This document shows, in pieces, positions 202 through 20,882 of a DNA stretch of 64,000 bases (the stretch's first letter is position 1; every line of letters starts with the position of its first letter). The DNA is from Oscillospiraceae bacterium (GTDB lineage: Bacteria; Bacillota; Clostridia; UMGS1810). The stretch covers positions 1-64,000 of the forward strand of contig SVJZ01000005.1 of NCBI GenBank assembly GCA_015068705.1. The letters are read 5' to 3'. A program made the position numbers and the translations under genes. Below the pieces are notes generated by a model. The model saw only the letters and a list, made by a program, of their open reading frames with translations. It was not told the origin of the DNA and did not search any database.

Positions 202-314
202 ACTTTATTACCTCCGTTTGCTAAAATGTGTTAAAAAATCGAGTTTCTTCCTTTATATACTGTATATGCAAAACCATACGAATTGTCGGGGACGCCAGGT
301 CCTACAATCAATGA

Positions 315-2042
315 TTACTTATTCAAGCAGTTTAAGATAAGCACTGCACAGCTCGCACGGTTGATGCTTGCCTTGCCGTCAAAGCGGTTGTTCCCCACTC
401 CGTTTACAATGCCGTTTCCTGCCAAAGTTGCGATGGCGTCTGCCGCGTAGGAAGCAAATTCTCCCTCGTCGGCAAAGCTTGCCTTGGTTGCATCCAGTAC
501 ACCGATACCGGACAAATACCGGTATACGATCACGCACGCATCCTCACGGGTGATTTCGCCGTTGGGATTAAACGTGCCATCGGTACCGCCACTGATGATA
601 CCGCTTGCATATGCCGTGCGGATGTAATTGTAATACCAATCAGAAGTGGTTACATCGGCAAAGGGAATTTCTGCCGCGGTTGCAAGCCCGAATGCTGTGG
701 TAAGCATTTTTACAAACTCGGCACGGGTTACATTACCCTCGGGACGGAAGGTGCCGTCCGGATAGCCCGAGATGACATTTTTTGCAGCCAGTTGGCTGAT
801 GGCATCCTTGCCCCAGAAATCAGCCGGCACATCCGTAAAGGTTTTGGTATCAACCGCTTCTTCTCGTTGCTCGGGACGGGACGGTGCAATCTCAAATGAG
901 CCGATTCCGCCTCCGCCGCCTCCGCCGCCATTACCCGAAGGACGTGCGGTAGACTGGGTTTTCTTGCCGTTTACTTCTCCATCCGCCTTATCAAAATTAC
1001 TTTCAATATCTGCAAATGTATTGTAATCGTAATGCATCATCTGTTTGAATACCTTGGTGCGGTTGTCCACATCGAAATCAATCTCAAGCACATCTGCATA
1101 GGTATCGGTTACCACCGTTTCGATGGTCTGCCATCTGTCTGCCGCCTGCACTACTGCCAGTGCAGAAAGCTCGGGTAACTCGTCCGACAAACTTCTGCCG
1201 TCTGCATTGAAATTTTTGAGCAAAGTATTGAGTTTTGCAGAGGATGCACTGTCCAATGCGGTTACAAAGCGCTCCACGTCTGCATCATATACTGCAGCAT
1301 TTGCACTGACTATTGCCGATGGGTCGGTAGAATTGATTGCCTCATAGAGCACGCGGTATTCATTCACCAGCGAAACTACCTCACCGGTGCTCACAAAATC
1401 CACACCATCCTTGGTGCCCACCAGCTGCTCGGCAACATATTCGCCATATTGTGCAAATTCATCGGGGTCAACACCGAGTAACTCGGTATACGGAACTCTG
1501 TTTTCCGCAGGAGTGCTCTCATTACCCGTCTTGCCGGTTTCAATCATATCATAGAGTGCATCTGCATCTGTTTTTACTGTGTTAAGGTCGGCGACCAACT
1601 GAAAGCCGTCATCAATATTGATGTGGTAAATCTCTGTGGTTATCTCCTTTACATCATCATGCAACGTACCGTAAAGACGAACAGGGACTTCCTCTTTATT
1701 TACCACTGTCATTTCTGTGCCTGACACGATATACTGCTCATTGCTACTCACCAACACATCATACATACCGCTGGGGAGATTTTTATCCATCGGGATACTT
1801 TCGTCGAATTTAGTTACATTGTGCCAATCATACTGCGCGGTTGCCACTGCGTTTCCGGCTGCAATTCCGGCAGAACCTGCACCATCGGGAACAACCGTTA
1901 CCAGAACAGGTGCTTTGGCAGTTCCTTTCAGTGCAATTTTATTTGTTGCTGTGTCATAATCAATGGTGCAATCAAGTGCAAACGCTTGTGTCACCAGCGA
2001 CAATGCAAATAATCCCGCAACCAAACCTACGCGTTTTTTCAT
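315..2042 (-). CDS. Secreted protein with three C-terminal SLH domains
   Basis: A 575-residue surface protein. A signal peptide (residues 1-21, MKKRVGL start) is followed by a beta-type segment, a mainly helical middle (about 100-360), a run of eight glycines near residue 370 and three SLH domains (about 395-575) with FTDV, SGYPDGTFRPE and TRAEFVKML type motifs. SLH domains usually bind pyruvylated secondary cell-wall polymer, so the protein should sit on the outer face of the wall. The ORF could open 13 codons earlier, but GGGAGG seven bases before the ATG at 2042 decides the start. It is a close paralogue of 31902-33674, in the same order (AraC, this gene, LamG protein). The middle region matches no family I recognise. 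Confidence 0.85.
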   Translation of the reverse strand: MKKRVGLVAGLFALSLVTQAFALDCTIDYDTATNKIALKGTAKAPVLVTVVPDGAGSAGIAAGNAVATAQYDWHNVTKFDESIPMDKNLPSGMYDVLVSSNEQYIVSGTEMTVVNKEEVPVRLYGTLHDDVKEITTEIYHINIDDGFQLVADLNTVKTDADALYDMIETGKTGNESTPAENRVPYTELLGVDPDEFAQYGEYVAEQLVGTKDGVDFVSTGEVVSLVNEYRVLYEAINSTDPSAIVSANAAVYDADVERFVTALDSASSAKLNTLLKNFNADGRSLSDELPELSALAVVQAADRWQTIETVVTDTYADVLEIDFDVDNRTKVFKQMMHYDYNTFADIESNFDKADGEVNGKKTQSTARPSGNGGGGGGGGIGSFEIAPSRPEQREEAVDTKTFTDVPADFWGKDAISQLAAKNVISGYPDGTFRPEGNVTRAEFVKMLTTAFGLATAAEIPFADVTTSDWYYNYIRTAYASGIISGGTDGTFNPNGEITREDACVIVYRYLSGIGVLDATKASFADEGEFASYAADAIATLAGNGIVNGVGNNRFDGKASINRASCAVLILNCLNK

Positions 2043-2138
2043 TGTGTTTACCTCCCAAATCATATTGACATGATGACGCACATTACATGGACCTTCACCA
2101 CTGCATTCTCAAAGAAAAGTCCATCTATCATTATGGAT

Positions 2139-2167
2139 ATTGTACAACATTACCAACACCTTTTCAA
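2139..2167 (-). promoter_or_regulatory. Sigma-A promoter of the SLH gene
   Basis: TTGAAA (2162-2167) and TACAAT (2139-2144) are separated by 17 bases, about 100 bases upstream of the start at 2042. The paralogous SLH gene at 31902 has the same two hexamers with the same spacing. Confidence 0.7.
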
Positions 2168-2231
2168 TGTCTGCGCGCAATCATACTAAAAAATGCATAG
2201 TTTATCTTAAAAAAGATTAAATTTTGATAAC

Positions 2232-2266
2232 AAAAAAACGCAAACATCGTGATGTCTGCGTTTTTT
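2232..2266 (-). terminator. Rho-independent terminator after AraC gene
   Basis: An 11-base stem (2238-2248 with 2251-2261) is flanked by T runs on both strands. On the minus strand it closes the AraC gene that ends at 2279, separating it from the SLH promoter. Confidence 0.85.
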
Positions 2267-2278
2267 CGTCATGCTGCT

Positions 2279-3145
2279 TTATTCGCTTTTGGATCTCATT
2301 TTCTTTTGCTTGCTTCGGTACTCGGAGGGGGTATAAGAATAGAACTTTTTAAATTCCTTATTGAAATTCTGTACAGTGCCAAATCCCGCCTCATGGGAAA
2401 TATCAGCAATACTCATATCGGTATTTACAATCAGATTTGCCGCAAAATTCATCCGCAAGTTTGTGATATAGCCTTTAAAGGTTACTCCCATTGCCTGATG
2501 AAAGGTTTTGCTCAGGTGTTGTGGTGAATAATGCACATATTCTGCCACCGTTTTTAAATCCAATGTTTTTTTGAAATTCTGATGCAGATATACCAATACA
2601 CGTTGAATGTTTTCACTTCCCTTTTCATCCAGCTTGCCCAGCTCGCTGGTTCGCTTGAGATGATCGATCATATTGATGAGGATGCATTCGAGCAGTTTTT
2701 GAGTAGAGGGCACATAATATGTAGTACCATGGTGAAACTCCGCCTGGCGGGCAATGAGCGAAAATGCCGCATCCATCAGTTCTTTTTCCACACCGTCAAA
2801 ATACAGGGGGGTGTTGTTGGAAACACCGATGAGGGTGTTTAGAATAAAGGGGTCAACATCAGTCTCTTGATAATTGATCTTGATAAAACGGATGGGCTCC
2901 TCGGTGATAAGCTCATGAAAATCGCTGGGCATAAGTGAATGCAATGCGCCGGGATAAATGGGATATTCCACACCGTTGAAAATCTGCTTTCCCTTTCCTG
3001 ATACAACATATTCAATCTCATAGTGGTCGTGCCAGTGCAACATAACCCCGTCATCCACCGGCTCTTTGCACACATAAATTCCGGTTTGCCACTGCTTATA
3101 CTCTGCCATGGTAAAGCGGTATATTTTGGACAAATCACTGCTCAT
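2279..3145 (-). CDS. AraC-family transcriptional regulator (cupin + HTH)
   Basis: A 288-residue cytoplasmic regulator. The N-terminal half is a cupin sensor (HWHDHYEIEYV near residues 40-50, typical of sugar-sensing AraC proteins). The last 100 residues are two helix-turn-helix motifs (YSPQHLSKTFHQAMG, then a second ending in FKKFYSYTPSEYR). Three in-frame ATGs compete; GGAGG seven bases upstream favours 3145. It lies directly upstream of the SLH/LamG cassette but has its own promoter and terminator, so it probably controls that cassette from its own transcript. The close relative at 33967-34872 sits in the same position in the second cassette. The effector is unknown. Confidence 0.88.
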   Translation of the reverse strand: MSSDLSKIYRFTMAEYKQWQTGIYVCKEPVDDGVMLHWHDHYEIEYVVSGKGKQIFNGVEYPIYPGALHSLMPSDFHELITEEPIRFIKINYQETDVDPFILNTLIGVSNNTPLYFDGVEKELMDAAFSLIARQAEFHHGTTYYVPSTQKLLECILINMIDHLKRTSELGKLDEKGSENIQRVLVYLHQNFKKTLDLKTVAEYVHYSPQHLSKTFHQAMGVTFKGYITNLRMNFAANLIVNTDMSIADISHEAGFGTVQNFNKEFKKFYSYTPSEYRSKQKKMRSKSE

Positions 3146-3186
3146 TGCCATACCTCCTTTTCTAACCAAGTGCATTTTTCACCTTC

Positions 3187-3215
3187 AGTATAACACGCTT
3201 TTTCTGTTTGTGCAA
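3187..3215 (-). promoter_or_regulatory. Sigma-A promoter of AraC gene
   Basis: TTGCAC (3210-3215), a 17-base spacer and TATACT (3187-3192), about 42 bases before the start at 3145. Confidence 0.7.
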
Positions 3216-3263
3216 GCCCAAACAAATTCCTTTTTTCGACCCCATCATCTTTGACTGTCAAAA

Positions 3264-3293
3264 AAGAGGTGTGTCTTTTAGTCACACCTCTTT
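3264..3293 (-). terminator. Terminator of the acyl-CoA ligase fusion gene
   Basis: A stem AAGAGGTGTG/CACACCTCTT is followed on the minus strand by a T run, immediately past the stop codon at 3297-3299. Confidence 0.9.
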
Positions 3294-3296
3294 TTA

Positions 3297-5603
3297 TCAT
3301 TCATTTTTGGCTTTTTCCAAATCTTTATTTCGGATTTCCACACGTCTTACCTTACCACTGATGGTCTTGGGAAGTTCATCCACAAATTCTACAATTCTGG
3401 GGTACTTATAAGGTGCCGTATGGGTTTTTACATATTCCTGAATCTCTTTTTTGCGTTCATCGGTTCCATCGGTTCCCTTGGTGAGTACGATGGTCGCCTT
3501 TACAATCTGCCCTCTTACCTCATCGGGAACGGCGGTGATTGCACACTCCAAAACATACGGCAACTCCATGATAACACTCTCGATCTCAAAAGGCCCGATG
3601 CGATAGCCGGACGATTTGATTACATCGTCGATACGCCCCACATACCATAGGTAACCATCCTCGTCCATGGTTGCCTGATCACCGGTGTGATAGAATCCAT
3701 CATACCACACATCCTTAGTTTTTTCTTCGTCCAGATAATAACCAATAAACAATCCGCAAGGCGCGCCATCCTTGGTACGGATGCAGATTTCACCCGTATC
3801 GCCGGTTTTGCACTCGTTGCCGTCCGGGTCTAGGATAACCACATCATAGAGCGGACTGGGTCTTCCCATGGATCCGATTTTTGGTGTGGAGCCAACAAAG
3901 TTAGCGATGGAAAGCGTGGTTTCGGTCTGACCGAAGCCTTCCATGATTTTTAAGCCCGTCGCCTTGAGGAACTGATTGTAAACCTCGGGGTTGAGTGCCT
4001 CGCCGGCAGTGGTTGCATATTCAATGGAGGAAAGGTCATACTTGGACAAATCCTCTTTGATGAAGAAGCGATACATGGTGGGTGGTGCACAGAAGGTGGT
4101 AATATTGTACTTTTTGAAAAGCGGCAGAATATCGTCGGGATGGAACCGATCAAAGTCGTAGGTAAATACTCCTGCCTCACATAGCCACTGACCGTAAAGT
4201 TTACCCCAGAGCGCCTTACCCCAACCAGTATCCGAAATGGTGAAGTGCAATCCATCGGGGTTTACATTATGCCAATGTTTTGCCGTGGGATAATGGCCCA
4301 ACGCATATTTGTAGGAATGGGTGGCAATACGGGGATAGCCGGTAGTGCCCGAGGTAAATAGCATAAGCATGGGGTCATCGCCGCAGGGAGAATCCTCGGT
4401 GCGGTTAAAATGAGTGCTGAATCGCTCCATCTCCACATTAAAATCGTGCCAACCGTCCTTGTTTCCTCCAACCATAATTTTGAGCATTTCTGGAAATTCT
4501 TGTGCCGCTTTTTCCGCCTCTGTTGAAACCTCGCCGTCGGCGGTACAAACGATTGCCTTTACACCTGCAGCTTTATATCTGTATGTAAAGTCATGCTCTA
4601 CCAACTGATTGGTTGCAGGAATAGCAACTGCGCCAATTTTATGTAGTGCCAACATGCAGAACCAGAATTGGTAGTGGCGTTTGAGCACCAGCATAACCGT
4701 GTCACCACGCTTAATTCCAAGCGATTCAAAATAGTTTGCAGTTTTTGCCGAATATTTTTTCATATCGCTGAACGTAAACTTTTTCTCAGATTTATCGTTG
4801 CTCACCCACATCATGGCAAGCTTATCCGGGTTCTTTTGGGCAATGGCATCCACACAGTCGAATGCAAAATTGAATTTGTCTTCATTTTTAAATGTGATGC
4901 CATTGAATACGCCATTTTCATCATAAGAGGATTCGACGAATTTATCGGCAACGGTTTTTACTGCGTTCTTCTTTGCAGCAGCAGCTTTTGCAGCGATAAA
5001 CGGAGCTTCTGGATACTCCTCACTGAAGTGACCATCCTGGGGATTCAATACAACCGCATGAAACTCGCAACCACCCTCGCTGACTGCAATCATACCATGT
5101 GGAATGATGCTGTTATAGAAAATGGAGTCGCCTTCATTTAAGATATCAACATGGTTTCCCACCTGCACCTTGAGAGAACCTTTTACGATCACGTCAAACT
5201 CCTGTCCGTTATGGGAGTTGAGCTTAATGGGAGCGTTCTGTTCCTCTGCAAGATAAGGAAATTTTACCAAAAATGGCTCAGCGAGTTTTTCTTTGAATTT
5301 GGGTGCAAGATTGTTGTAAACCACGCCCTGCTTCTTGATAATTTTAAGTCCCTCACCCTTCCTGGTGATGGCAAATGAGGTAAGAGTACTGCTGGTGCCC
5401 TCCAGGATGTCAACCACCTCAACATTACATGCCTTTGCACACTTGTAGATAAATGTGAAACTAAAATCCGTTTCTCCCTCTTCAAGTAGCTTGTAATCCT
5501 CTACCGTTACACCGGTGAGTTTCGCAAGCTCTTCGGGGGAATATCCTTTTGCCTCGCGCAGGTCTTTGATTCTGCCTGCGACCTCCTTAAGATTGTAATC
5601 CAT
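3297..5603 (-). CDS. XRE-cupin-acyl-CoA synthetase (AMP-forming) fusion
   Basis: A 768-residue three-part protein. Residues 1-65 form an XRE-type helix-turn-helix (VAGRIKDLREAKGYSPEELA). Residues about 75-200 form a cupin of the kind usually fused to XRE repressors. An alanine/lysine-rich linker follows, then a full adenylate-forming ligase (about 225-768) with SGTTG near 416-420, GFGQTET, YHTGDQ, the hinge GRIDDVIKSSGYRIGP and the C-terminal lysine in TISGKVRR near 749. All ATP-binding and catalytic signatures are present, so ligase activity is expected: acid + ATP + CoA to acyl-CoA. The ligase resembles the medium-chain/acetyl-CoA synthetase group; the substrate cannot be read. It is alone on its transcript behind a T-box leader, with a terminator directly after it. 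The HTH/cupin part may sense ligand or pathway intermediates, or act only structurally. Confidence 0.9.
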   Translation of the reverse strand: MDYNLKEVAGRIKDLREAKGYSPEELAKLTGVTVEDYKLLEEGETDFSFTFIYKCAKACNVEVVDILEGTSSTLTSFAITRKGEGLKIIKKQGVVYNNLAPKFKEKLAEPFLVKFPYLAEEQNAPIKLNSHNGQEFDVIVKGSLKVQVGNHVDILNEGDSIFYNSIIPHGMIAVSEGGCEFHAVVLNPQDGHFSEEYPEAPFIAAKAAAAKKNAVKTVADKFVESSYDENGVFNGITFKNEDKFNFAFDCVDAIAQKNPDKLAMMWVSNDKSEKKFTFSDMKKYSAKTANYFESLGIKRGDTVMLVLKRHYQFWFCMLALHKIGAVAIPATNQLVEHDFTYRYKAAGVKAIVCTADGEVSTEAEKAAQEFPEMLKIMVGGNKDGWHDFNVEMERFSTHFNRTEDSPCGDDPMLMLFTSGTTGYPRIATHSYKYALGHYPTAKHWHNVNPDGLHFTISDTGWGKALWGKLYGQWLCEAGVFTYDFDRFHPDDILPLFKKYNITTFCAPPTMYRFFIKEDLSKYDLSSIEYATTAGEALNPEVYNQFLKATGLKIMEGFGQTETTLSIANFVGSTPKIGSMGRPSPLYDVVILDPDGNECKTGDTGEICIRTKDGAPCGLFIGYYLDEEKTKDVWYDGFYHTGDQATMDEDGYLWYVGRIDDVIKSSGYRIGPFEIESVIMELPYVLECAITAVPDEVRGQIVKATIVLTKGTDGTDERKKEIQEYVKTHTAPYKYPRIVEFVDELPKTISGKVRRVEIRNKDLEKAKNE

Positions 5604-5663
5604 TTTTTCTGCTCCTTTCTCTCTTCGTCTTTTTTGAAGCTAATTCGATGGATTTGAATAAAA

Positions 5664-5942
5664 CAAAAAACCCGTCTCAAAATACACTTTTGAGACGAGT
5701 TATTCAACCCGCGGTACCACTCAAATTGCGAAATTTCTTTCGCCACTTACCGGGCTCCAACAAGCCCTTTGCTTTCACGCAGCATTACGGAAGGAGTCTA
5801 CTTGCACATAGCTTTCGGTCCTCCAACTCGGAAGTGATGGGTCATTGGAAGGCTTTACCATTGGCTCGCAGCAACCGCCAACTCTCTCCAGGCTCTACCC
5901 CCCGACCGTCTTCGTCATAGTCGTTTGTTATATTCAAATTTG
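5664..5942 (-). promoter_or_regulatory. T-box leader riboswitch with terminator (candidate Ile specifier)
   Basis: Read on the minus strand, the leader has the T-box core AGTGGTACCGCGG (5709-5721), an upstream stem I with a distal GGTTGCTGCGAGCC loop, and a strong terminator (stem 5671-5700, T run 5665-5670). This is the standard architecture for tRNA-sensing transcription antitermination. Aligned by the ACTTCCGAG segment that usually follows the specifier, the specifier triplet would be AUC (5836-5838), meaning isoleucine; this assignment is tentative. The next gene is not a tRNA synthetase but the acyl-CoA ligase fusion, which starts 61 bases beyond the terminator T run. Confidence 0.9.
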
Positions 5943-5948
5943 ATTTGT

Positions 5949-5977
5949 ATTATACTCCTATCTAATTCATTTGTCAA
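5949..5977 (-). promoter_or_regulatory. Consensus sigma-A promoter of the T-box transcript
   Basis: Perfect TTGACA (5972-5977), 17-base spacer, perfect TATAAT (5949-5954). The transcript should start near 5942, giving a leader of about 340 bases. Confidence 0.9.
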
Positions 5978-6075
5978 TAGTTTTTTTCATTTTTCTTTTT
6001 ATAACCAAAAAAGCAGGATGCCCCCACGATGCAAACCGCCGCAAAGAGCAGGTTAAAATCCGGCTCCAATCCGGT
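5974..6075 (-). pseudogene. Remnant of a cell-wall-anchored protein tail
   Basis: The 180 bases between xylB and the T-box promoter look empty except for a 33-codon open tail. It starts just after an in-frame stop with T-G, continues through a hydrophobic stretch (LLFAAVCIVGASCFFG) and ends YKKKNEKNY. This has the shape of an LPXTG-type sorting signal: threonine-glycine, membrane segment, positive tail. No start codon, ribosome site or upstream coding sequence is left. Its stop codon lies inside the -35 box of the T-box promoter. Chance cannot be excluded. Confidence 0.3.
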
Positions 6076-6154
6076 TCAACCATTCTCGCAAATGTGCAAA
6101 GAATATCAGCCTCATCGGTAATTTGGGAGGTATAAAAAGCTTGATTTGTTTTTC

Positions 6155-7633
6155 CTATATCAGTTCTTTGTACAACTGCTTTATCGCAGGATATATTTTT
6201 CTGTATTTCTGATAGCTTTCCTCATATCTTGCTACCGTTTCAGCGTGAGGTCGAATGGTTTCCTTCTTTAGAACCAGCGTTTTAGCGCACGTCAAAACCG
6301 AATCATATTCTCCACAGGCAACCATTGCAAGCATCGCTGCACCAAGACCGGGCCCTTCTTCCACTGCAGGAATTTCAAGCTCGATATTTAAAATATTTGC
6401 TATTATCTTTTGCCACAATTTTGATTTTGCACCGCCACCGCAAATTGTACTGACCTTTACATCAACGCCAAGGCTCTTTGCAATTTCAAGGTTATCGCGG
6501 AAAGCAAATGCCACCCCTTCCAGAACTGCCAGAATCATATCCTGGCGGGTTGTATCAGGGCGCATCCCGACAAACAACCCTCTTGCATCCGTATCGTTGA
6601 TGGGGCTTCTTTCGCCCATCAAATACGGTAAAAAGTATACATGGTTTTTTCCAAGGTTTTGCTCTCTGATGCCCGCCTGTTCCCCACTATAATCATCCGT
6701 CTTAAGAATTTCTTCATAAAACCACTTATTGCAAGATGCAGCAGAAAGAATGCACCCCATCAGATGATATCCACCATCCGAATGGCAGAAGGAATGCAGT
6801 GCATTAAATTTATCTACCCCGAACTTTTCTGATGAAATAAAAATGGTGCCCGATGTACCAAGGGATATGTTACATTTCCCCTCGCCAACTGTTGCAGTAC
6901 CAATTGCCGCACCTGCGTTATCACCTGCGCCGGCTGCAACCCTGACACCATCTGCAAAACCAAGAAGTTTTGCGTTTTCGGGTAACACCTCGCCCGTATA
7001 ATCAAAACTTTCATATAGCTTGGGAAGTTGTTCTTCCCTTACATCACAAATCTTAAGCATTTCTTTTGACCAGCATTTATTCTTTACATCAAGTAAAAGT
7101 GTGCCCGATGCATCGGAATAGTCTATGGAGTGCACACCGGTAAGGCGGTATGCAATATAGTCTTTGGGAAGCATAATTTTTGAAATTTTATTAAAGTTTT
7201 CTTTCTCATTATTTTTAAGCCATAGAATTTTAGGAGCAGTAAAGCCCGCGAAAGCAATATTTGCCGTATAATCAGACAATTTTTGTTTTCCCACTATGGT
7301 ATTCAAATATTCTGTTTCTCTATCGGTTCTGCCATCGTTCCAAAGTATTGCCGGGCGGATAACCTCGTCATTTTGGTCAAGAATAACCAGAGCATGCATT
7401 TGTCCCGCCACCGACAGACCCTTAACGGATTTCGCGTCAAATCCTGAAAGCAATTCTCCCACACCGCTGACAAACGCGTTCCACCAATCCTCAGGATTCT
7501 GTTCACTCCAACCAGGGTTTGGATAATATACTTGGTAATTTTTTGTAACTGAATTTAAAATTTTGCCTTTGGCATCAACGAGTAGCAGCTTTAAACCTGA
7601 CGTTCCAAGGTCAGCACCTATGTAATAGTTCAT
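6155..7633 (-). CDS. xylB: Xylulokinase (FGGY family)
   Basis: A 492-residue cytoplasmic kinase that phosphorylates D-xylulose to xylulose 5-phosphate with ATP. It has the FGGY two-domain form: an N-terminal phosphate-binding motif (GADLGTSGLKLLLVD), the sugar-binding GQMHALV region, the ATP-binding GAGDNAGAAIG and LGTSGTI segments, and a C-terminal CGGGAKSKLWQ motif. Length fits the family. The start at 7633 has GAGGA eight bases upstream. It is monocistronic here; no xylose isomerase or xylose transporter is next to it. Xylulokinase is the best fit among FGGY kinases because of the GADLGTSG and MHAL signatures, but a related ketose kinase cannot be excluded. Confidence 0.88.
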   Translation of the reverse strand: MNYYIGADLGTSGLKLLLVDAKGKILNSVTKNYQVYYPNPGWSEQNPEDWWNAFVSGVGELLSGFDAKSVKGLSVAGQMHALVILDQNDEVIRPAILWNDGRTDRETEYLNTIVGKQKLSDYTANIAFAGFTAPKILWLKNNEKENFNKISKIMLPKDYIAYRLTGVHSIDYSDASGTLLLDVKNKCWSKEMLKICDVREEQLPKLYESFDYTGEVLPENAKLLGFADGVRVAAGAGDNAGAAIGTATVGEGKCNISLGTSGTIFISSEKFGVDKFNALHSFCHSDGGYHLMGCILSAASCNKWFYEEILKTDDYSGEQAGIREQNLGKNHVYFLPYLMGERSPINDTDARGLFVGMRPDTTRQDMILAVLEGVAFAFRDNLEIAKSLGVDVKVSTICGGGAKSKLWQKIIANILNIELEIPAVEEGPGLGAAMLAMVACGEYDSVLTCAKTLVLKKETIRPHAETVARYEESYQKYRKIYPAIKQLYKELI

Positions 7634-7677
7634 CCGTTTTCCTCCTCTTAAGCAGACATATTAATTATATTTTAATT

Positions 7678-7683
7678 ATTATA
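7678..7683 (-). promoter_or_regulatory. Extended -10 promoter of xylB
   Basis: TATAAT preceded by TGG gives an extended -10. A TTGACA lies only 12 bases upstream, too close to act as its -35, so recognition is probably through the extended -10. Confidence 0.5.
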
Positions 7684-7763
7684 CCACACTTTTTCTGTCA
7701 ATTCCAGTAAAAACACATAATAATCAAAAAATAGTCTTTTAGGTGGATTACGAAGATTCTTTG

Positions 7764-7789
7764 TGCGAAGGCAGGATTTGAACCTTACG
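7764..7789 (-). repeat. Copy of the tRNA-fMet 3' end (tRNA fragment)
   Basis: The minus strand reads CGTAAGGTTCAAATCCTGCC then TTCGCA. This matches the T-arm and acceptor end of the tRNA-fMet (7987-8011) except for one inserted A and one C/T change. No matching 5' half exists, so it is a fragment. It bounds a GC-rich stretch. Confidence 0.7.
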
Positions 7790-7925
7790 CCCTTTTGCGG
7801 TTCCCGGCTCTGCCTACGGCGTTTATACGCCTTGCCCTCGCCGACCGCGGCAACTCGCTCGCCTCTCTCCCTCTGCCACCGGCAGCGTTCGGCTCACTCC
7901 CCTTCGGGAACCCTCGGTCGTATCT
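7790..7925. other. GC-rich non-coding island between tRNA 3'-end copies
   Basis: About 135 bases of clearly higher GC than the surroundings, with short inverted pieces (for example GGCGT..ACGCC, and GGGTTCCC near GGGAACC). No gene, tRNA cloverleaf or transposase is visible. It lies downstream of the tRNA terminator, between the tRNA-fMet and the tRNA fragment at 7764-7789. It may be a small non-autonomous repeat or the relic of a tRNA-targeting element. Confidence 0.4.
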
Positions 7926-7944
7926 TCAATTTTTCCATACAACG

Positions 7945-7978
7945 AAAAATCTCCGTCCACCATCAGGTGAACGGAGAT
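7945..7978 (-). terminator. Terminator of the tRNA operon
   Basis: Stem TCTCCGT..CACC/GGTG..ACGGAGA (7950-7978) followed by ATTTTT on the minus strand, just past the CCA end of tRNA-fMet. Confidence 0.85.
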
Positions 7979-7982
7979 CCTT

Positions 7983-8059
<77 letters not shown>

Positions 8060-8098
8060 ATACAGATATTTACTTTTGCCGGTCGGCAACCAAACAAA

Positions 8099-8187
8099 TG
8101 GTGCCGGAGACCGGGATCGAACCGGTACGAAGGGTTAGCTTCGCAGGATTTTAAGTCCTGTGCGTCTGCCAGTTCCGCCACTCCGGC
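8099..8187 (-). tRNA. tRNA-Leu (TAA)
   Basis: An 89-base class II tRNA with anticodon TAA, a long variable arm and encoded CCA. The acceptor GCCGGAG pairs fully with CTCCGGC. First gene of the two-tRNA operon. Confidence 0.95.
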
Positions 8188-8206
8188 CCGCTTGCTTTAC
8201 CTATAC

Positions 8207-8235
8207 ATTATAGCACCGATTTTTTCCTTTGTCAA
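8207..8235 (-). promoter_or_regulatory. Consensus promoter of the tRNA operon
   Basis: Perfect TTGACA (8230-8235), 17-base spacer, perfect TATAAT (8207-8212), 20 bases before the tRNA-Leu 5' end. Consensus strength is expected for a stable-RNA promoter. Confidence 0.9.
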
Positions 8236-8279
8236 GAGAAATTCGGTAATAGATTGTGCTTTTTTTAAAATATTATACC

Positions 8280-8304
8280 AAAAGGGGCAAAAATTGTATG
8301 CCCC
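8280..8304 (-). terminator. Terminator of the yab/divIC operon
   Basis: Stem AGGGGCA/TGCCCCT overlapping the yabR stop codon and followed by TTTT on the minus strand. Confidence 0.7.
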
Positions 8305-8793
8305 TTAATATCCGCCACCCGAACGCCGACTACTGCCGCGCTTGGATTCCACATTCTTTTTGAGTGCATGCATCTTTTCATCGCTTGCCTGCTTAAACTT
8401 ATTGAGTTTATCCTCAAAAGACAAAGCCGAATCATCTTCCTGAAACCAATCGATATCCACCGGATTGGAACGATTATCATACGGCTCGGAAACGGGTTTC
8501 TTGCGGAAACCACCCTGCCGCCCGCCAGGACGGCCCTGTCCACGTTGCTGCGGATTTTCCTCGCGCATTGCCTGTTTGATGGAAAGACCGATTTTACCCT
8601 TATCTGTGGACAAAATCTTTACTTTCACCACATCTCCAACCTTTAAATGCTCATGAATATCTTTTACATACTCAAGCGCCACCTCGGAAATATGTACCAG
8701 ACCGGTAACGCCCTCCTCCAGGTCAATGAAGGCACCGAAATTTGTGATACCGGCGACCTTTCCTTCCAGTATCTTGCCTACTTCCAACTGCAT
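8305..8793 (-). CDS. yabR: S1-domain RNA-binding protein YabR
   Basis: A 162-residue protein with one S1 RNA-binding domain at residues 1-72 (GKILEGKVAGITNFGAFIDL, then VKILSTDKGKIGLSIK) and a low-complexity tail rich in glycine, arginine and glutamine that probably also touches RNA. Gene order with divIC, yabQ, yabP and yabO matches the Bacillus subtilis yab region, where yabR is the last gene and tRNA genes follow, as here. The molecular target is not known. GGAGGA twelve bases before the ATG sets the start at 8793. Confidence 0.85.
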   Translation of the reverse strand: MQLEVGKILEGKVAGITNFGAFIDLEEGVTGLVHISEVALEYVKDIHEHLKVGDVVKVKILSTDKGKIGLSIKQAMREENPQQRGQGRPGGRQGGFRKKPVSEPYDNRSNPVDIDWFQEDDSALSFEDKLNKFKQASDEKMHALKKNVESKRGSSRRSGGGY

Positions 8794-12715: not shown

Positions 12716-13417
12716 TTATACGCCTTCCTGCATCCAATTACAACTGTAATAAAACTCCACCTTATCGTCCTCTTTGAGTATATAGCGGGAACTTCCATAG
12801 GTCTGTTTTTCGCCATTTACCCTATAGAGCCATCCTGAATACTCTCCGCAATCAAATTCATACAGATTACCAATGCCCTCGATATATGACGATTCAAACA
12901 TGGGGGTATTTACAAATTCCATATGGATATTGTTTCTCCGCATTTCTTTCAGTAGCACATCAAATGCGCTCTCTCCATGTTCAAACACAACCTCCTGTGC
13001 CCGGTAGATAATCCCGTCGGGTGGAATTATCTTCTCCTTGCCTTTTGGAAGCAACGCCATGTTTCTTAGCACATCATCACATCTCACAGAGAGGATACAT
13101 TTTTTTCGGTTGTCTGTCGGTTCCTGCAAATATTCTGTCTGTCCGGATATGGAAGTCGTATCCGGCGCAATCGCATCTTCTTCGGGAGCATCCGTCTTTT
13201 CTTCTTGCACAACGGAAACGGGTGTTTGGGTTTCTGGCATAGGACCATCCGGAGCAACAGGCATTTTTTCAGGTTGCTGCATGGTTTCTTCCTGATTCAC
13301 GTCCAGCGTTTCCGGCGAAGAAATATCCGGGGAATCCCCCACTCCAAATAGCGCAAACGAACCGACAAACAGCGCCAGAATGATGGCGCCAATCCACAAT
13401 ATATGTTTTTTCTTCAT
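12716..13417 (-). CDS. Membrane-anchored DUF4430 (transcobalamin C-terminal-like) protein
   Basis: A 233-residue protein with an N-terminal membrane anchor or uncleaved signal (residues 6-25), an acidic, proline-rich spacer (about 26-110) and a C-terminal DUF4430 domain (about 145-233) with GESAFDVLLKEMRRNN, CGEYSGWLYRVNGEKQTYG and LKEDDKVEFYYSCN. DUF4430 corresponds to the small beta-domain of intrinsic factor/transcobalamin, which closes over bound cobalamin in animals. It starts four bases after the surface protein at 13422-15968, so both are made from the B12-riboswitch transcript. Inference: it is the membrane-side partner that receives or holds the corrinoid. No lipobox cysteine is present. 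Confidence 0.8.
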   Translation of the reverse strand: MKKKHILWIGAIILALFVGSFALFGVGDSPDISSPETLDVNQEETMQQPEKMPVAPDGPMPETQTPVSVVQEEKTDAPEEDAIAPDTTSISGQTEYLQEPTDNRKKCILSVRCDDVLRNMALLPKGKEKIIPPDGIIYRAQEVVFEHGESAFDVLLKEMRRNNIHMEFVNTPMFESSYIEGIGNLYEFDCGEYSGWLYRVNGEKQTYGSSRYILKEDDKVEFYYSCNWMQEGV

Positions 13418-13421
13418 TTTA

Positions 13422-15968
13422 TTATCCCCTCAAAAACCGCATGAGCATGGTTGCTACCTCTGCACGGGTGGCTCTCTCCTGCGGTGCAAGAATATTTTCT
13501 CCTTTTCCGCTGATAATCCCTGCCCAAACGGCGTATTCCATAGCATCTTTCGCATAATCCGAAATCTCATCTGCATCACCATATGGCAAAAGCTCTGCCT
13601 GTCCGCTTACGTCATATCCGGCACCTTCCGCATACCGATAAAGAATCAGGGCAAGTTGCTCACGGGTGATATCGGTATCGGGCGCAAATTGGGTGTCTGA
13701 CACACCAGATACCACTCCCTTTTCTGCCGCCCATTTTACGGCATCGGCATACCAATCATCCTCATGCACATCTTCAAACGGATTTTCACCGGGCACCTTA
13801 TCGGGTGCCGCAAGACGATACAGCACTGTAACCAGCATCCCTCTCGTCATACACACATCCGGTTCAAAACCTTTGTCGGTTCCGCTAAACAGTTTGTTTT
13901 CATACACAAACTGTACCGCCGGATGGAACCAATCTTCACTCGTCACGTCTGAAAAAACCGTTTCCACGGCAACCGAAGCTTCTTCATCCGACAGTTGCTC
14001 TTTTTGTCCCTCTTGTTTGGACACCTCTTCATCTACCAATGCGGATGATGCGCCGCCCATACTTCCACCGCCGCTGTTTGAATTGCCGGCAGGTATTCTG
14101 TCAAGGTCAATAGCAATCCGCTTTACACGTTTTTCCAAAACATCTCCGGCACTCACAACCACTTCGCCGCTTTGCTTTTTATAGCCGGATGCCTTTGCCT
14201 CGTAGGTATATGTTCCCTCTTGTAAATCAAAGCAATTTTCCTTAACCGCCGTTTGACCCTCTATGGTAACAACAGTCTTTTGGGGGCTTACCTCAAACAC
14301 CACAGGGCAATAAGAAACGCCCGATACATCCACTGCTCTCATAGGGGCGTCGGCGAAATCATACACATCGCCCAACCCCTCCGAAAGCATATACCATGCC
14401 AAAAGTCCCCGAAAGCCCTGTTCTGTTGCAAAGGCATTGGAAAATCCGTTCATTTGCTCATTTGCGGTGGACATAATGCCGTCAATCAGGCTTTTTTCGC
14501 CATTTAATATTTGAGCAGCATCCACTCCCATCGCAGAAAAGGCGCAAATTGCAAGTCCGGTAGAGGCACCCTCATATCCTAAAAATCCGTCAATCAACCC
14601 GTCTTCGCGTTGTTCGGCTTGTAAAATTACCATCGCCTCATCCACACATGCCTTTACTGCGTCATTGGTGCTATAATGTGGCGCAAGCGCGACAATCATA
14701 GGTGTCATGGCATCGGTGCCATTCGCCGTATCCAGCCATACCGATGCACGCTCCACCGCCGCATTCACCAACCATGCTGTCTGCTCTGCAGTGGCATAGC
14801 CCTCACCCTGCGCCAGGGCAATCATCACATACGGCAAGGTATACACATTGGTTACGGAAGCATCTTGGCTATCAATGAGTGCGGTCAGTTTTTCCGGCAC
14901 ATTGATCTTATCAAATGTCTGGGTATACACATCTGCCGCATCATACCCCAACGCACGAATTGCCAGAATTGCTTTTGCCAGGTCACCCGGTTTGGTTGAC
15001 TCGTTTGCCAGAGATACCACCGTCTCTAATGCCGCCTGTTTTTTCTCCTCGCTCATTACGATTTCGCTTTCGGGAAATGCCGTTTGATAGGCAACCATGT
15101 CCGCAACAATCCAGGGCAAATTACCATCTGCCTCCGCCACATCAAGATCAGCATACTGTTCGGCAATGTTGTGCATAATTTGAATTTCCGGTCTGTTTAT
15201 TATCTCAACCACACAAACGGGTGCGGTAATAGCAGGCACCGGAACGGCAGCAGCCAGCATCATTTCCTCGTTTTCTTGGTTTTCTTCATCTAATATCTTG
15301 CTCTTTTTTGCGCTGATGATATACTTACCCACCTCATCGAGGGTGATGATCGCCTTACCCTCTGCATCGGTAATCACATCTGTCTCTTCACCATTTACAG
15401 TAATGGTTGCCCCCTCGCAGGGCAAATATATCGTATTCCAATCATCGTCATATCCGCTCGCATAGGTCAGGGTAAGAGTAATCTCTTCTGCGGGATATGC
15501 CTGTGTCCGGTACACATCAAAAAACGAATACGCCTCACTGTTGGGATATTCATTCTGATAAATACACGCGTCTATGTAGTCACCATCTTCTACCACATGA
15601 CCGGGTCCCATCACACTCTCCCGACCGCCATTTACCTGATAGCCAAAATTGTAGCTGGTATCCCCCCACAATTGATCAACAGAAAGTCCCCATTGTTCAC
15701 TCACAGAGGATGCGTATCCTTCCTCACCATCGGGGCAATATTTCTCGTGTGCCGCCATAAATGCATCATCGAGGGTGTAGCTTTCCTTGCCCTGTAATTT
15801 CACCTCGGCACACGCTACATCCGCGCCATTCTTTCCCTTTACCAGTTCGCCATATTTGCTCATGGAAAAATACACCGTAATGGCATTTTCCGTCCCTAGT
15901 GCAAATGCAGGGATGACACCAATCACCATGATAAGTGCCAGCACCGCTGCTACTACTCTTCTTTTCAT
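13422..15968 (-). CDS. SLH-anchored transcobalamin/intrinsic-factor-like surface protein
   Basis: An 848-residue secreted protein. In order: signal peptide (1-23); a DUF4430-like beta domain (about 28-125); an Ig/carboxypeptidase-regulatory-like strand domain with an ITVNGEETDVITDAEGKA pattern (about 155-220); an all-helical region (about 260-590) with alpha/alpha-toroid repeats (GASTGLAICAFSAMGVDA, TEQGFRGLLAWYML) like the large domain of intrinsic factor; a PEGA-like strand domain ending in YEAKASGYKK; a Gly/Ser linker; three SLH domains (about 670-848). The two cobalamin-binding halves of transcobalamin thus occur in one wall-anchored chain. Control by a cobalamin riboswitch supports a corrinoid role. 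The start at 15968 has GGAG ten bases upstream; 31 extra upstream codons lie in the terminator leader and are rejected. Confidence 0.85.
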   Translation of the reverse strand: MKRRVVAAVLALIMVIGVIPAFALGTENAITVYFSMSKYGELVKGKNGADVACAEVKLQGKESYTLDDAFMAAHEKYCPDGEEGYASSVSEQWGLSVDQLWGDTSYNFGYQVNGGRESVMGPGHVVEDGDYIDACIYQNEYPNSEAYSFFDVYRTQAYPAEEITLTLTYASGYDDDWNTIYLPCEGATITVNGEETDVITDAEGKAIITLDEVGKYIISAKKSKILDEENQENEEMMLAAAVPVPAITAPVCVVEIINRPEIQIMHNIAEQYADLDVAEADGNLPWIVADMVAYQTAFPESEIVMSEEKKQAALETVVSLANESTKPGDLAKAILAIRALGYDAADVYTQTFDKINVPEKLTALIDSQDASVTNVYTLPYVMIALAQGEGYATAEQTAWLVNAAVERASVWLDTANGTDAMTPMIVALAPHYSTNDAVKACVDEAMVILQAEQREDGLIDGFLGYEGASTGLAICAFSAMGVDAAQILNGEKSLIDGIMSTANEQMNGFSNAFATEQGFRGLLAWYMLSEGLGDVYDFADAPMRAVDVSGVSYCPVVFEVSPQKTVVTIEGQTAVKENCFDLQEGTYTYEAKASGYKKQSGEVVVSAGDVLEKRVKRIAIDLDRIPAGNSNSGGGSMGGASSALVDEEVSKQEGQKEQLSDEEASVAVETVFSDVTSEDWFHPAVQFVYENKLFSGTDKGFEPDVCMTRGMLVTVLYRLAAPDKVPGENPFEDVHEDDWYADAVKWAAEKGVVSGVSDTQFAPDTDITREQLALILYRYAEGAGYDVSGQAELLPYGDADEISDYAKDAMEYAVWAGIISGKGENILAPQERATRAEVATMLMRFLRG

Positions 15969-16000
15969 TTTCTTCGTCTCCTTTGTTATTGTATTGATAT

Positions 16001-16041
16001 AAAAAAACTGCGGTAATTTTCGTAACCGAAAATTACCGCAG
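16001..16041 (-). terminator. Riboswitch-controlled transcription attenuator
   Basis: A perfect 15-pair stem (CTGCGGTAATTTTCG with its complement, 16008-16041) followed by seven Ts on the minus strand, placed between the cobalamin aptamer and the start at 15968. It implies control by early termination when cobalamin is bound. Confidence 0.9.
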
Positions 16042-16099
16042 CTGAGTTTTCCTGCGACCAATCACAATTTGCGCGCACGCAAAAAAATCATTCCCATAC

Positions 16100-16330
16100 G
16101 GAATAATATCAAAGCAGGTCTTCCGACTCACATCATATAAGGTTTTCCCTCGCATTTTTATGCCCTGCCTTCTCAGTTTCCCAATGACCGGCTTTCACCG
16201 ACGAGCATAAAAACATTTGATGTATACGGCGACAGGTATCGTCACGGATTCGCACCGTGTTCCCTTTTCACCAACGGCACCCTATGCAGTACCGCCGACA
16301 CTCTGTGTGATACTATATAATTGTAAGTTA
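16100..16330 (-). promoter_or_regulatory. Cobalamin (B12) riboswitch
   Basis: On the minus strand the order is AAAAGGGAACACGGTGCGAA, ATCCGTGACGATACCTGTCGCC, GTGAAAGCCGGTC, TGGGAAACTGAGAAGGC, then AGTCGGAAGACCTGC (B12 box, about 16110-16130). These are the conserved blocks of the cobalamin aptamer in correct order. It controls the SLH/transcobalamin-like gene and the DUF4430 gene. Confidence 0.92.
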
Positions 16331-16336
16331 TACTGT

Positions 16337-16366
16337 AATATAACACGCCAGTTGCTCTTGTGTCAA
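16337..16366 (-). promoter_or_regulatory. Promoter of the cobalamin riboswitch operon
   Basis: TTGACA (16361-16366), 18-base spacer, TATATT (16337-16342). Confidence 0.75.
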
Positions 16367-19598: not shown

Positions 19599-19730
19599 GT
19601 AGCCAAGGTAAAATAACGATGTCCACTGCACCGGACAAAAGAAATAAGCGTACTGCCACCCTGGAAAACAGAAACGTATTTTTTGGTCAAACAAGATAAC
19701 AAAAATCAAATAGGAAAAGAGGTTGTAAAC

Positions 19731-20882
19731 ATGTTTCAAATTTATTGTGCGGCATTTGACTCACCGGAAGAATTAAAAAGAAAAGCGGACTTTATCTGCG
19801 ATGAAAAGGACGCAAGACCCACCCTTCAAGAGGCAATCGACAAAGCGGACGAATTGAACGTAAGCTGCGTACTTGCCAAGGGCACCTACATCATCAATTC
19901 AAGAGGCGAAAGAAGCCCCAGAGGCGCCATCTGCTTTTACAATCCGGAACCTGCAAAAAGATTTTACGCGCAAAACTGCGCAAGATATCACACCCTCGAA
20001 GGCACAAAAGCACCGATTGGTTATCTCGATGGTGCCGTCATCACCATGGGCAGGGAATTTTATGATTCTCTTTCAGACACGGAAGAATTTTCTCTTTTCT
20101 ACAATGATGGTGGTGATAGCATGGGCAGAGGAATGTTTATCCGCAACCTGACGGTAAAACTTCCTGATTGTAGCAAACCCGTTATTGTTTTTGATGGCAG
20201 ATTCGCCGGTGCTGTCCGTTATGAGGATACATGGGTTTCTTCGTTCGATCCGGAAGGAAAGAATTATGCAACTGCAGAAGGAATCCCCGTTCCGCACATA
20301 AAATCTGTTGCATTCCGTGGCTGCCATGGCTCAAACTTTTACTCAACCGAAATGAAAAACTGCGCTGCTGCAGGCTTTGGTACCGGTTTTGACATCGGTG
20401 GCGAGCATGTTTATTGCGAAAGTCTTTCTGCACTTTACAACCACTACGGCTTTGCCTTCAACAATTACCGGGGCAAACGCAGTATCGACGATAATGACAG
20501 TTTACCGGCACTGGGTGTTGGTGTGTACCCGATTTACTGTGTCAATCTTCTGGATGAGCACAATATCAACATGCCCATTTTCGGCAATGTAGCATATGAC
20601 GATGGAACACCCGACTTTATGGTGCAGTCCATCACCATCCGCGGCATGAATCTCCAGTGGCCCAACTCCTGCCCCGGGCACACCGACAGAGCGCGTCCCG
20701 GATTTGGAGAGGACCGTATGCGTGCAACCGAAACACAACCGGGTGCATGGCGCGGCTCGATTGAATTTGCCCTTGACCACACAGGACCAAACAGCGAGGT
20801 AAACCTGGTTGACGAGCCATTCTTTGAAAAAGGACATGGTACAAACATCAAGCTTACCAATTTGCTTTTAAAACAGGAGTAA
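19731..20882 (+). CDS. Unrecognised 383-residue protein, possible beta-helix fold
   Basis: No signal peptide and no family I can name. The chain starts with a region rich in charged residues (DARPTLQEAIDKADELNVSC), then a series of short strands with repeated glycine and asparagine (RGMFIRNLTVKLP, HIKSVAFRGCHGSNFYSTEM, VQSITIRGMNLQWP). This looks like a right-handed beta-helix of the pectate-lyase/phage-tailspike kind, and the TLQEAIDKA opening resembles the start of such proteins. A cytoplasmic carbohydrate-acting enzyme would fit the neighbourhood but is inference. It is the only plus-strand gene between 19.2 and 60.9 kb. GAGGT precedes ATG 19731; 16 upstream codons lack a ribosome site. 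Confidence 0.7.
   Translation: MFQIYCAAFDSPEELKRKADFICDEKDARPTLQEAIDKADELNVSCVLAKGTYIINSRGERSPRGAICFYNPEPAKRFYAQNCARYHTLEGTKAPIGYLDGAVITMGREFYDSLSDTEEFSLFYNDGGDSMGRGMFIRNLTVKLPDCSKPVIVFDGRFAGAVRYEDTWVSSFDPEGKNYATAEGIPVPHIKSVAFRGCHGSNFYSTEMKNCAAAGFGTGFDIGGEHVYCESLSALYNHYGFAFNNYRGKRSIDDNDSLPALGVGVYPIYCVNLLDEHNINMPIFGNVAYDDGTPDFMVQSITIRGMNLQWPNSCPGHTDRARPGFGEDRMRATETQPGAWRGSIEFALDHTGPNSEVNLVDEPFFEKGHGTNIKLTNLLLKQE

Follow-up and report, generated by a model that had tools for sequence, protein, structure and literature searches.

The first 64,000 nucleotides of contig SVJZ01000005.1 (assembly GCA_015068705.1) of an uncultured gut-type Oscillospiraceae bacterium, called the window below, carry a cobalamin riboswitch and a strong intrinsic terminator, followed by a gene for a surface layer homology (SLH) wall protein and a gene for a membrane-anchored DUF4430 protein, all on the minus strand (Table 1; positions are those of the whole window unless another contig or locus is named). 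Very probably (about 85%), these two genes constitute a B12-controlled corrinoid-scavenging unit of a B12 auxotroph, which would feed a CbrT-type importer of the energy-coupling factor (ECF) class. The riboswitch, the domain content, the conserved linkage and, by sequence, the identity of the importer were established directly.

The leader of the wall gene contains an aptamer of the cobalamin family RF00174, for which the gathering score is 31.5 bits. It was the only RF00174 match in the whole genome, which is 1.77 Mb in size and 93.4% complete. Between the aptamer and the start codon of the wall gene lies a terminator hairpin with a z-score of -5.23 against shuffled sequences. A preliminary description of this region had proposed a cobalamin riboswitch with an attenuator, and both elements were recovered. 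Ligand-dependent switching is predicted from the combination of aptamer and terminator. For the wall gene, the ATG at 15968, preceded by AAAGGAG, is the most likely start codon; an alternative TTG start gives a wall open reading frame (ORF) of 879 amino acids that begins upstream of the terminator hairpin.

The linkage of riboswitch and wall gene was followed in relatives. The order was sampled by 16 genomes, nine of which, the present one included, have relatives of the wall protein, and 39 loci with such relatives emerged when GTDB species genomes were scanned. All 39 belong to metagenome-assembled genomes with labels such as uncultured Clostridia, Oscillospiraceae or Ruminococcus, and ruminant guts are their main source; viral contigs yielded no relative. 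Where upstream DNA was available, RF00174 was present above threshold ahead of the homologous wall gene in 30 of 36 loci (25 of 31 named loci and all five contigs duplicating genomes of the order). The riboswitch ended 64–288 nt upstream of the wall ORF in the 24 loci measured. In the reverse test, 15 cobalamin riboswitches were found across the order, in 14 of the 16 genomes, and the downstream gene was readable for 14 of them. Twelve precede a wall protein with a recognised DUF4430-type domain or a toroid, one leads directly into an importer operon, and one precedes a fragment resembling the G003 protein; no other type of gene was seen under a cobalamin riboswitch among the readable cases in these genomes. 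Exactly two cobalamin riboswitches are present in the sister genome G001, one on a wall/membrane pair and the other on an unlinked importer.

The wall protein consists, from N to C terminus, of a signal peptide, a DUF4430-like beta-grasp domain, an immunoglobulin-like linker, an alpha/alpha toroid, a PEGA-like domain and three SLH repeats. The repeats (PF00395) and the Sec-type signal peptide place it among SLH wall proteins, as had been proposed. The DUF4430 unit predicted for it was found in a qualified form. When the family profile of the N-terminal domain was compared with that of DUF4430 by hhalign, 99 columns were aligned with an E-value of 4.6e-8 and a probability of 94.9%, the two sets having no sequence in common. 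Pfam DUF4430 is listed for this domain in 0 of 22 aligned members, and the domain is treated here, on the strength of the profile comparison, as a divergent DUF4430-like domain. A control comparison of DUF4430 with the PEGA-like domain was not used, as the iterated set overlapped DUF4430.

The toroid is clearly visible in the AlphaFold model of the wall ectodomain, which was built from a 22-sequence alignment and has a mean pLDDT of 91.3. The eukaryotic cobalamin-binding family PF01122 (Cobalamin_bind) was matched by 24 of 33 relatives of this toroid at E<=0.1, the best at 3.6e-13, and the runner-up family in Pfam, Prenyltrans, by 3 of 33. Sequence-profile searches of the Protein Data Bank (PDB) did not recover the human carriers significantly (intrinsic factor at E ~0.27). 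For the identity of the wall toroid the PF01122 matches of relatives are more telling than the fold, which by itself leaves the assignment from the model non-specific. The protein had been described as built like intrinsic factor; this holds for the presence of toroid and DUF4430-type units but not for their arrangement. Intrinsic factor and transcobalamin have the alpha toroid followed by the beta domain in one secreted chain, whereas in this copy the beta unit precedes the alpha unit, inverting the order of intrinsic factor. The alpha-then-beta order occurs in relatives L016, L058, L059, L061 and L066 and a beta-alpha-beta order in several others, and the wall proteins of relatives repeatedly combine a toroid with a bona fide DUF4430 domain.

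The membrane partner starts 4 nt after the stop codon of the wall gene. It has a single N-terminal transmembrane helix, a disordered linker and a DUF4430 domain that belongs to PF14478 by score (54.6 bits; Pfam cut-off 23.8), so that the membrane-anchored DUF4430 protein predicted at this place is indeed encoded there. The pLDDT of the modelled domain is >90 over most of its length. Its first 17 fold matches in the PDB were intrinsic factor, transcobalamin and haptocorrin from human, rat and bovine sources, and the TM-score with the isolated transcobalamin beta domain (5no0) was 0.75. After these 17 carriers the next match was RUMGNA_00854 of Ruminococcus gnavus.

In many relatives the operon extends into a CbiQ-like T protein and a fused ATPase-ATPase-S (AA'S) protein of 810–900 amino acids; the latter has a pair of ABC ATPase domains, and an ECF S domain was present in the cases examined. 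Homologues of both proteins are encoded in the present genome at a site apart from the pair. The best PDB match of the S domain of this importer was 6fnp_A (E 6.6e-7), the next S component being 4hzu at 0.011. 6FNP is the structure of ECF-CbrT, which imports cobalamin and cobinamide (PMC5997447). Having a CbrT-type S, a T and two ATPases, the importer is of the ECF-CbrT type, and its transport function is predicted from sequence. Its ECF ATPase scored 332.6 bits against TIGR04520 (cut-off 315). The genomic arrangement thus agrees with the relay suggested beforehand, in which a wall protein and then a membrane protein serve an importer located elsewhere.

The preliminary description had seen no BtuFCD-like or B12 synthesis gene in the window, and this could be extended to the genome, in which no homologues of FecCD/BtuC, CbiC or CobS were found at 93.4% completeness; BtuR was not found either. 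The genome encodes the B12-dependent MetH, a PduO-type adenosyltransferase and a radical SAM-like protein that binds B12. The gene pattern of B12 auxotrophs has been described (PMC6593275), and the same pattern is seen here; from its gene content the host appears to be a B12 auxotroph.

Table 1. Features of the riboswitch-controlled pair, its importer and related loci.
Feature	Position	Strand	Evidence
Cobalamin riboswitch aptamer, RF00174	16319-16096	-	cmscan 62.5 bits, E 4.6e-13, full model 1-189
Intrinsic terminator (attenuator)	~16044-16001	-	RNA fold: ~17-bp stem, GUUA loop, 7 U
SLH-anchored wall protein, 848 aa	15968-13422	-	ORF and ribosome-binding site; SLH PF00395 4.9e-30; AlphaFold model
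DUF4430-like (transcobalamin beta-domain-like) N-terminal unit of wall protein	15513-15887	-	hhalign
Alpha/alpha toroid (transcobalamin alpha-domain-like) of wall protein	14352-15206	-	model helices; PF01122 in relatives
Membrane-anchored DUF4430 partner, 233 aa	13417-12716	-	PF14478 1.5e-14; structure model
Importer of the same genome, T + AA'S	G000 C16:29995-33467		homologues of relatives' proteins, 47% (T) and 54% identity
Loci with T + AA'S in the operon	L017-L020, L047, L050, L053, L054, L058, L061, L063, L067, L069, L074, L095		
Smaller SLH-toroid protein	L018 5970-7679; L047 12999-14627; L050 5035-6645		
Smaller SLH-toroid protein	L063 11465-13249; L067 10665-12326; L069 5353-7041		
SLH wall proteins with weak beta-propeller match	L095 2861-5089; L020 9898-15588		PQQ/BamB-type
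Cassette of Latilactobacillus curvatus plasmid	CP117684.1 (L078) 2853-8495		S component closest to CbrT, E 3.3e-14
DUF4430 surface protein (1264 aa) and second DUF4430 protein, Collinsella aerofaciens	NZ_OY725717.1 (L079) 260-5234		
ADP-ribosylglycohydrolase family protein, 591 aa	20926-22701	-	PF03747
399-aa protein	19683-20882	+	no Pfam match at E<=1e-5

In six loci the genes for the large wall protein and for the membrane partner are separated by a second, smaller SLH-toroid protein of 480–594 amino acids, whose toroid is nearer to prenyltransferase/hopene-cyclase toroids. Two SLH wall proteins under cobalamin riboswitches, in L095 and L020, match a beta-propeller weakly, and this propeller is possibly another corrinoid-binding surface module. 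One beta-propeller protein of a relative was compared with solved structures for likeness to BtuG, which returned BamB/PQQ-type and SLH matches only, and for the L095 protein no sequence match to Bacteroides BtuG was seen. In L015/L052 (G013) the operon runs from wall protein through membrane protein and T component into unrelated genes; the ATPase-S fusion of this small genome must be elsewhere or lost. The C. aerofaciens surface protein has four DUF4430 domains and a beta-propeller, and directly upstream of it an AdoCbl-II riboswitch match was seen below threshold (32.9 bits; cut-off 36.5). Elsewhere in the window, apart from the pair, lie the ADP-ribosylglycohydrolase family protein and the adjoining 399-aa protein of Table 1.

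A scheme for the action of the pair can be proposed. At low intracellular cobalamin the riboswitch would let transcription through the terminator, as is usual for riboswitches of this class. The SLH protein would be displayed on the wall and the corrinoid bound between its toroid and a DUF4430-type beta-grasp, as in intrinsic factor and transcobalamin, the sandwich forming either inside the wall protein or with the partner, and the membrane-tethered DUF4430 partner would take the ligand to, or present it at, the CbrT-type ECF importer. We infer corrinoid binding, the sandwich geometry, the order of hand-over and the identity of the corrinoid. The second DUF4430 domain, in the partner, favours hand-over; parallel capture is possible. 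Tentatively, the toroid of the wall protein and the beta domain of the partner might close in turn over one corrinoid, forming a split transcobalamin relay that passes it from wall to membrane to importer. Such a relay could, with the same reserve, be regarded as a Gram-positive counterpart of BtuG-BtuB built from the two domain types found in the soluble carriers of animals.

Several observations weigh against a scavenging function of the pair. The Pfam scan of this copy of the wall protein gave no N-terminal DUF4430 call, its toroid did not match PF01122, and in Pfam and NCBIfam together neither domain was called from this copy alone; the toroid earlier described in it is clear in the model and, as PF01122, in relatives. 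Foldseek ranked the thioester domains of complement C5 and alpha-2-macroglobulin above transcobalamin for the wall ectodomain, transcobalamin (2v3n) being at rank 7 with E 6.4e-6. An above-threshold riboswitch is absent upstream of the wall ORF in L063, L067, L068, L069, L070 and L075, and a pattern search for aptamer boxes in these six loci gave weak, chance-level matches; other control or divergent aptamers are candidates for their regulation. L063, L067 and L069 have a full importer in the operon despite the lack of such a riboswitch. The importer of the present genome has a leader too short for an aptamer, ahead of which the preceding gene ends in a terminator. With the genome 93% complete, the gene absences are not absolute. 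Binding data or an experimental study of a bacterial member were not found in the literature, subscription papers and preprints being outside the search.

SLH surface proteins are frequently adhesins, and the wall protein might be a B12-regulated adhesin or structural protein with a generic complement-thioester-like toroid that binds no corrinoid, the partner alone acting in uptake. Such a role would fit the lead of complement and macroglobulin in the fold search and the wide occurrence of the toroid fold. However, PF01122 is the sole Pfam toroid family matched by most relatives, toroid and bona fide DUF4430 domains are paired again and again in their wall proteins, and it is the wall gene that comes first after the riboswitch, which makes this explanation very improbable. 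Cobalamin riboswitches also frequently govern cobalt uptake, and the T protein matches CbiQ; a CbiQ/CbiO-like operon could import cobalt for B12 synthesis, the surface proteins binding cobalt or a cobalt chelate. We consider this extremely unlikely, as homologues of CbiC and CobS were not found in the genome, the S domain is CbrT/FolT-like (best match 6fnp, CbrT) and not CbiM, the T protein reached 26.6 bits against a cut-off of 111.8 for the cobalt CbiQ model, and the surface domains resemble B12 carriers. A remaining alternative concerns the ligand, which could be another corrinoid or a fragment (cobinamide, pseudocobalamin or a lower-ligand base) instead of cobalamin. The diversity of gut corrinoids would allow for this, and both CbrT and the human carriers accept cobinamide or analogues (PMC5997447). 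It is nevertheless unlikely: MetH requires a complete cobamide, and the known route for completing cobinamide would need CobS, the nucleotide-loop assembly gene, which was not found in the genome.

The concept of B12 scavenging by surface proteins of this kind predates the present analysis. Transcobalamin C-terminal-like domains were recognised in surface proteins of low-GC Gram-positive bacteria by Burroughs, Balaji, Iyer and Aravind in 2007, who predicted these SLBB-clade proteins to be B12 scavengers and proposed that the animal carriers originated from them (PMC1796856). Proteins of that class are secreted or wall-anchored and combine a DUF4430 beta-grasp with an alpha/alpha toroid, whichever of the two comes first; their operons contain another paralogue together with CbiO/CbiQ genes, and their hosts mostly lack B12 synthesis. 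The pair resembles them in these traits, the beta-grasp of its wall protein being a divergent DUF4430-like unit. The SLH anchor, the riboswitch control, the fusion of a CbrT-type S to both ATPases and the unlinked pair and importer are not described in that paper, and the words "SLH" and "riboswitch" are absent from the text of PMC1796856. To the 2007 prediction the present case adds anchoring by SLH repeats, control by a riboswitch and the fusion with a CbrT-type S, and the gene-control evidence linking the class to B12 is much stronger here.

Intrinsic factor, transcobalamin and haptocorrin (PF01122 + DUF4430) share with the pair the two-domain plan of toroid and beta-grasp, the beta-domain fold of the partner and the PF01122 family matched by relatives of the wall toroid. 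They are secreted, unlike the wall-bound protein, in which the beta unit stands ahead of the toroid; a further DUF4430 domain is here carried by the separate membrane partner. ECF-CbrT of Lactobacillus delbrueckii (PMC5997447, PDB 6FNP) has the S component closest by sequence, with a T and two ATPases; there S is separate and shares a common module, whereas here ATPase, ATPase and S are fused in a polypeptide of ~880 amino acids and extracellular accessory proteins are added. BtuG and BtuH of Bacteroides are likewise surface-exposed corrinoid capture proteins beside transporters (PMC6143338, PMC8941943), but they are Gram-negative surface lipoproteins, BtuG partnering BtuB, and no sequence or fold match to the pair was seen. 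On the L. curvatus plasmid a wall toroid protein, a DUF4430 membrane protein and an ECF T, ATPase and S occur in one operon, the toroid having been read by eye without a Pfam match. This cassette differs in having an LPXTG anchor instead of SLH and a separate S gene, and no cobalamin riboswitch was found at the locus. The annotation of a Lacticaseibacillus entry names an additional lipoprotein component of a putative cobalamin ECF transporter (PMC9963975); accessory lipoproteins of importers of this type thus seem to have been noticed before.

Corrinoid capture by Firmicutes has been described as poorly known (PMC8941943), and recognising B12 transport systems from gut genomes as an unsolved problem (PMC6593275). 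Earlier predictions for this family drew solely on domain content and on neighbours of cobalt-transport type; the riboswitch now offers an approach to it that is specific to B12. Every step of a candidate route from the wall into the cytoplasm can be named, with L. curvatus as a cultured relative. Regulation, importer and auxotrophy together make the 2007 prediction directly testable, and they bear on the proposal that animal B12 carriers derive from Gram-positive surface proteins (PMC1796856).

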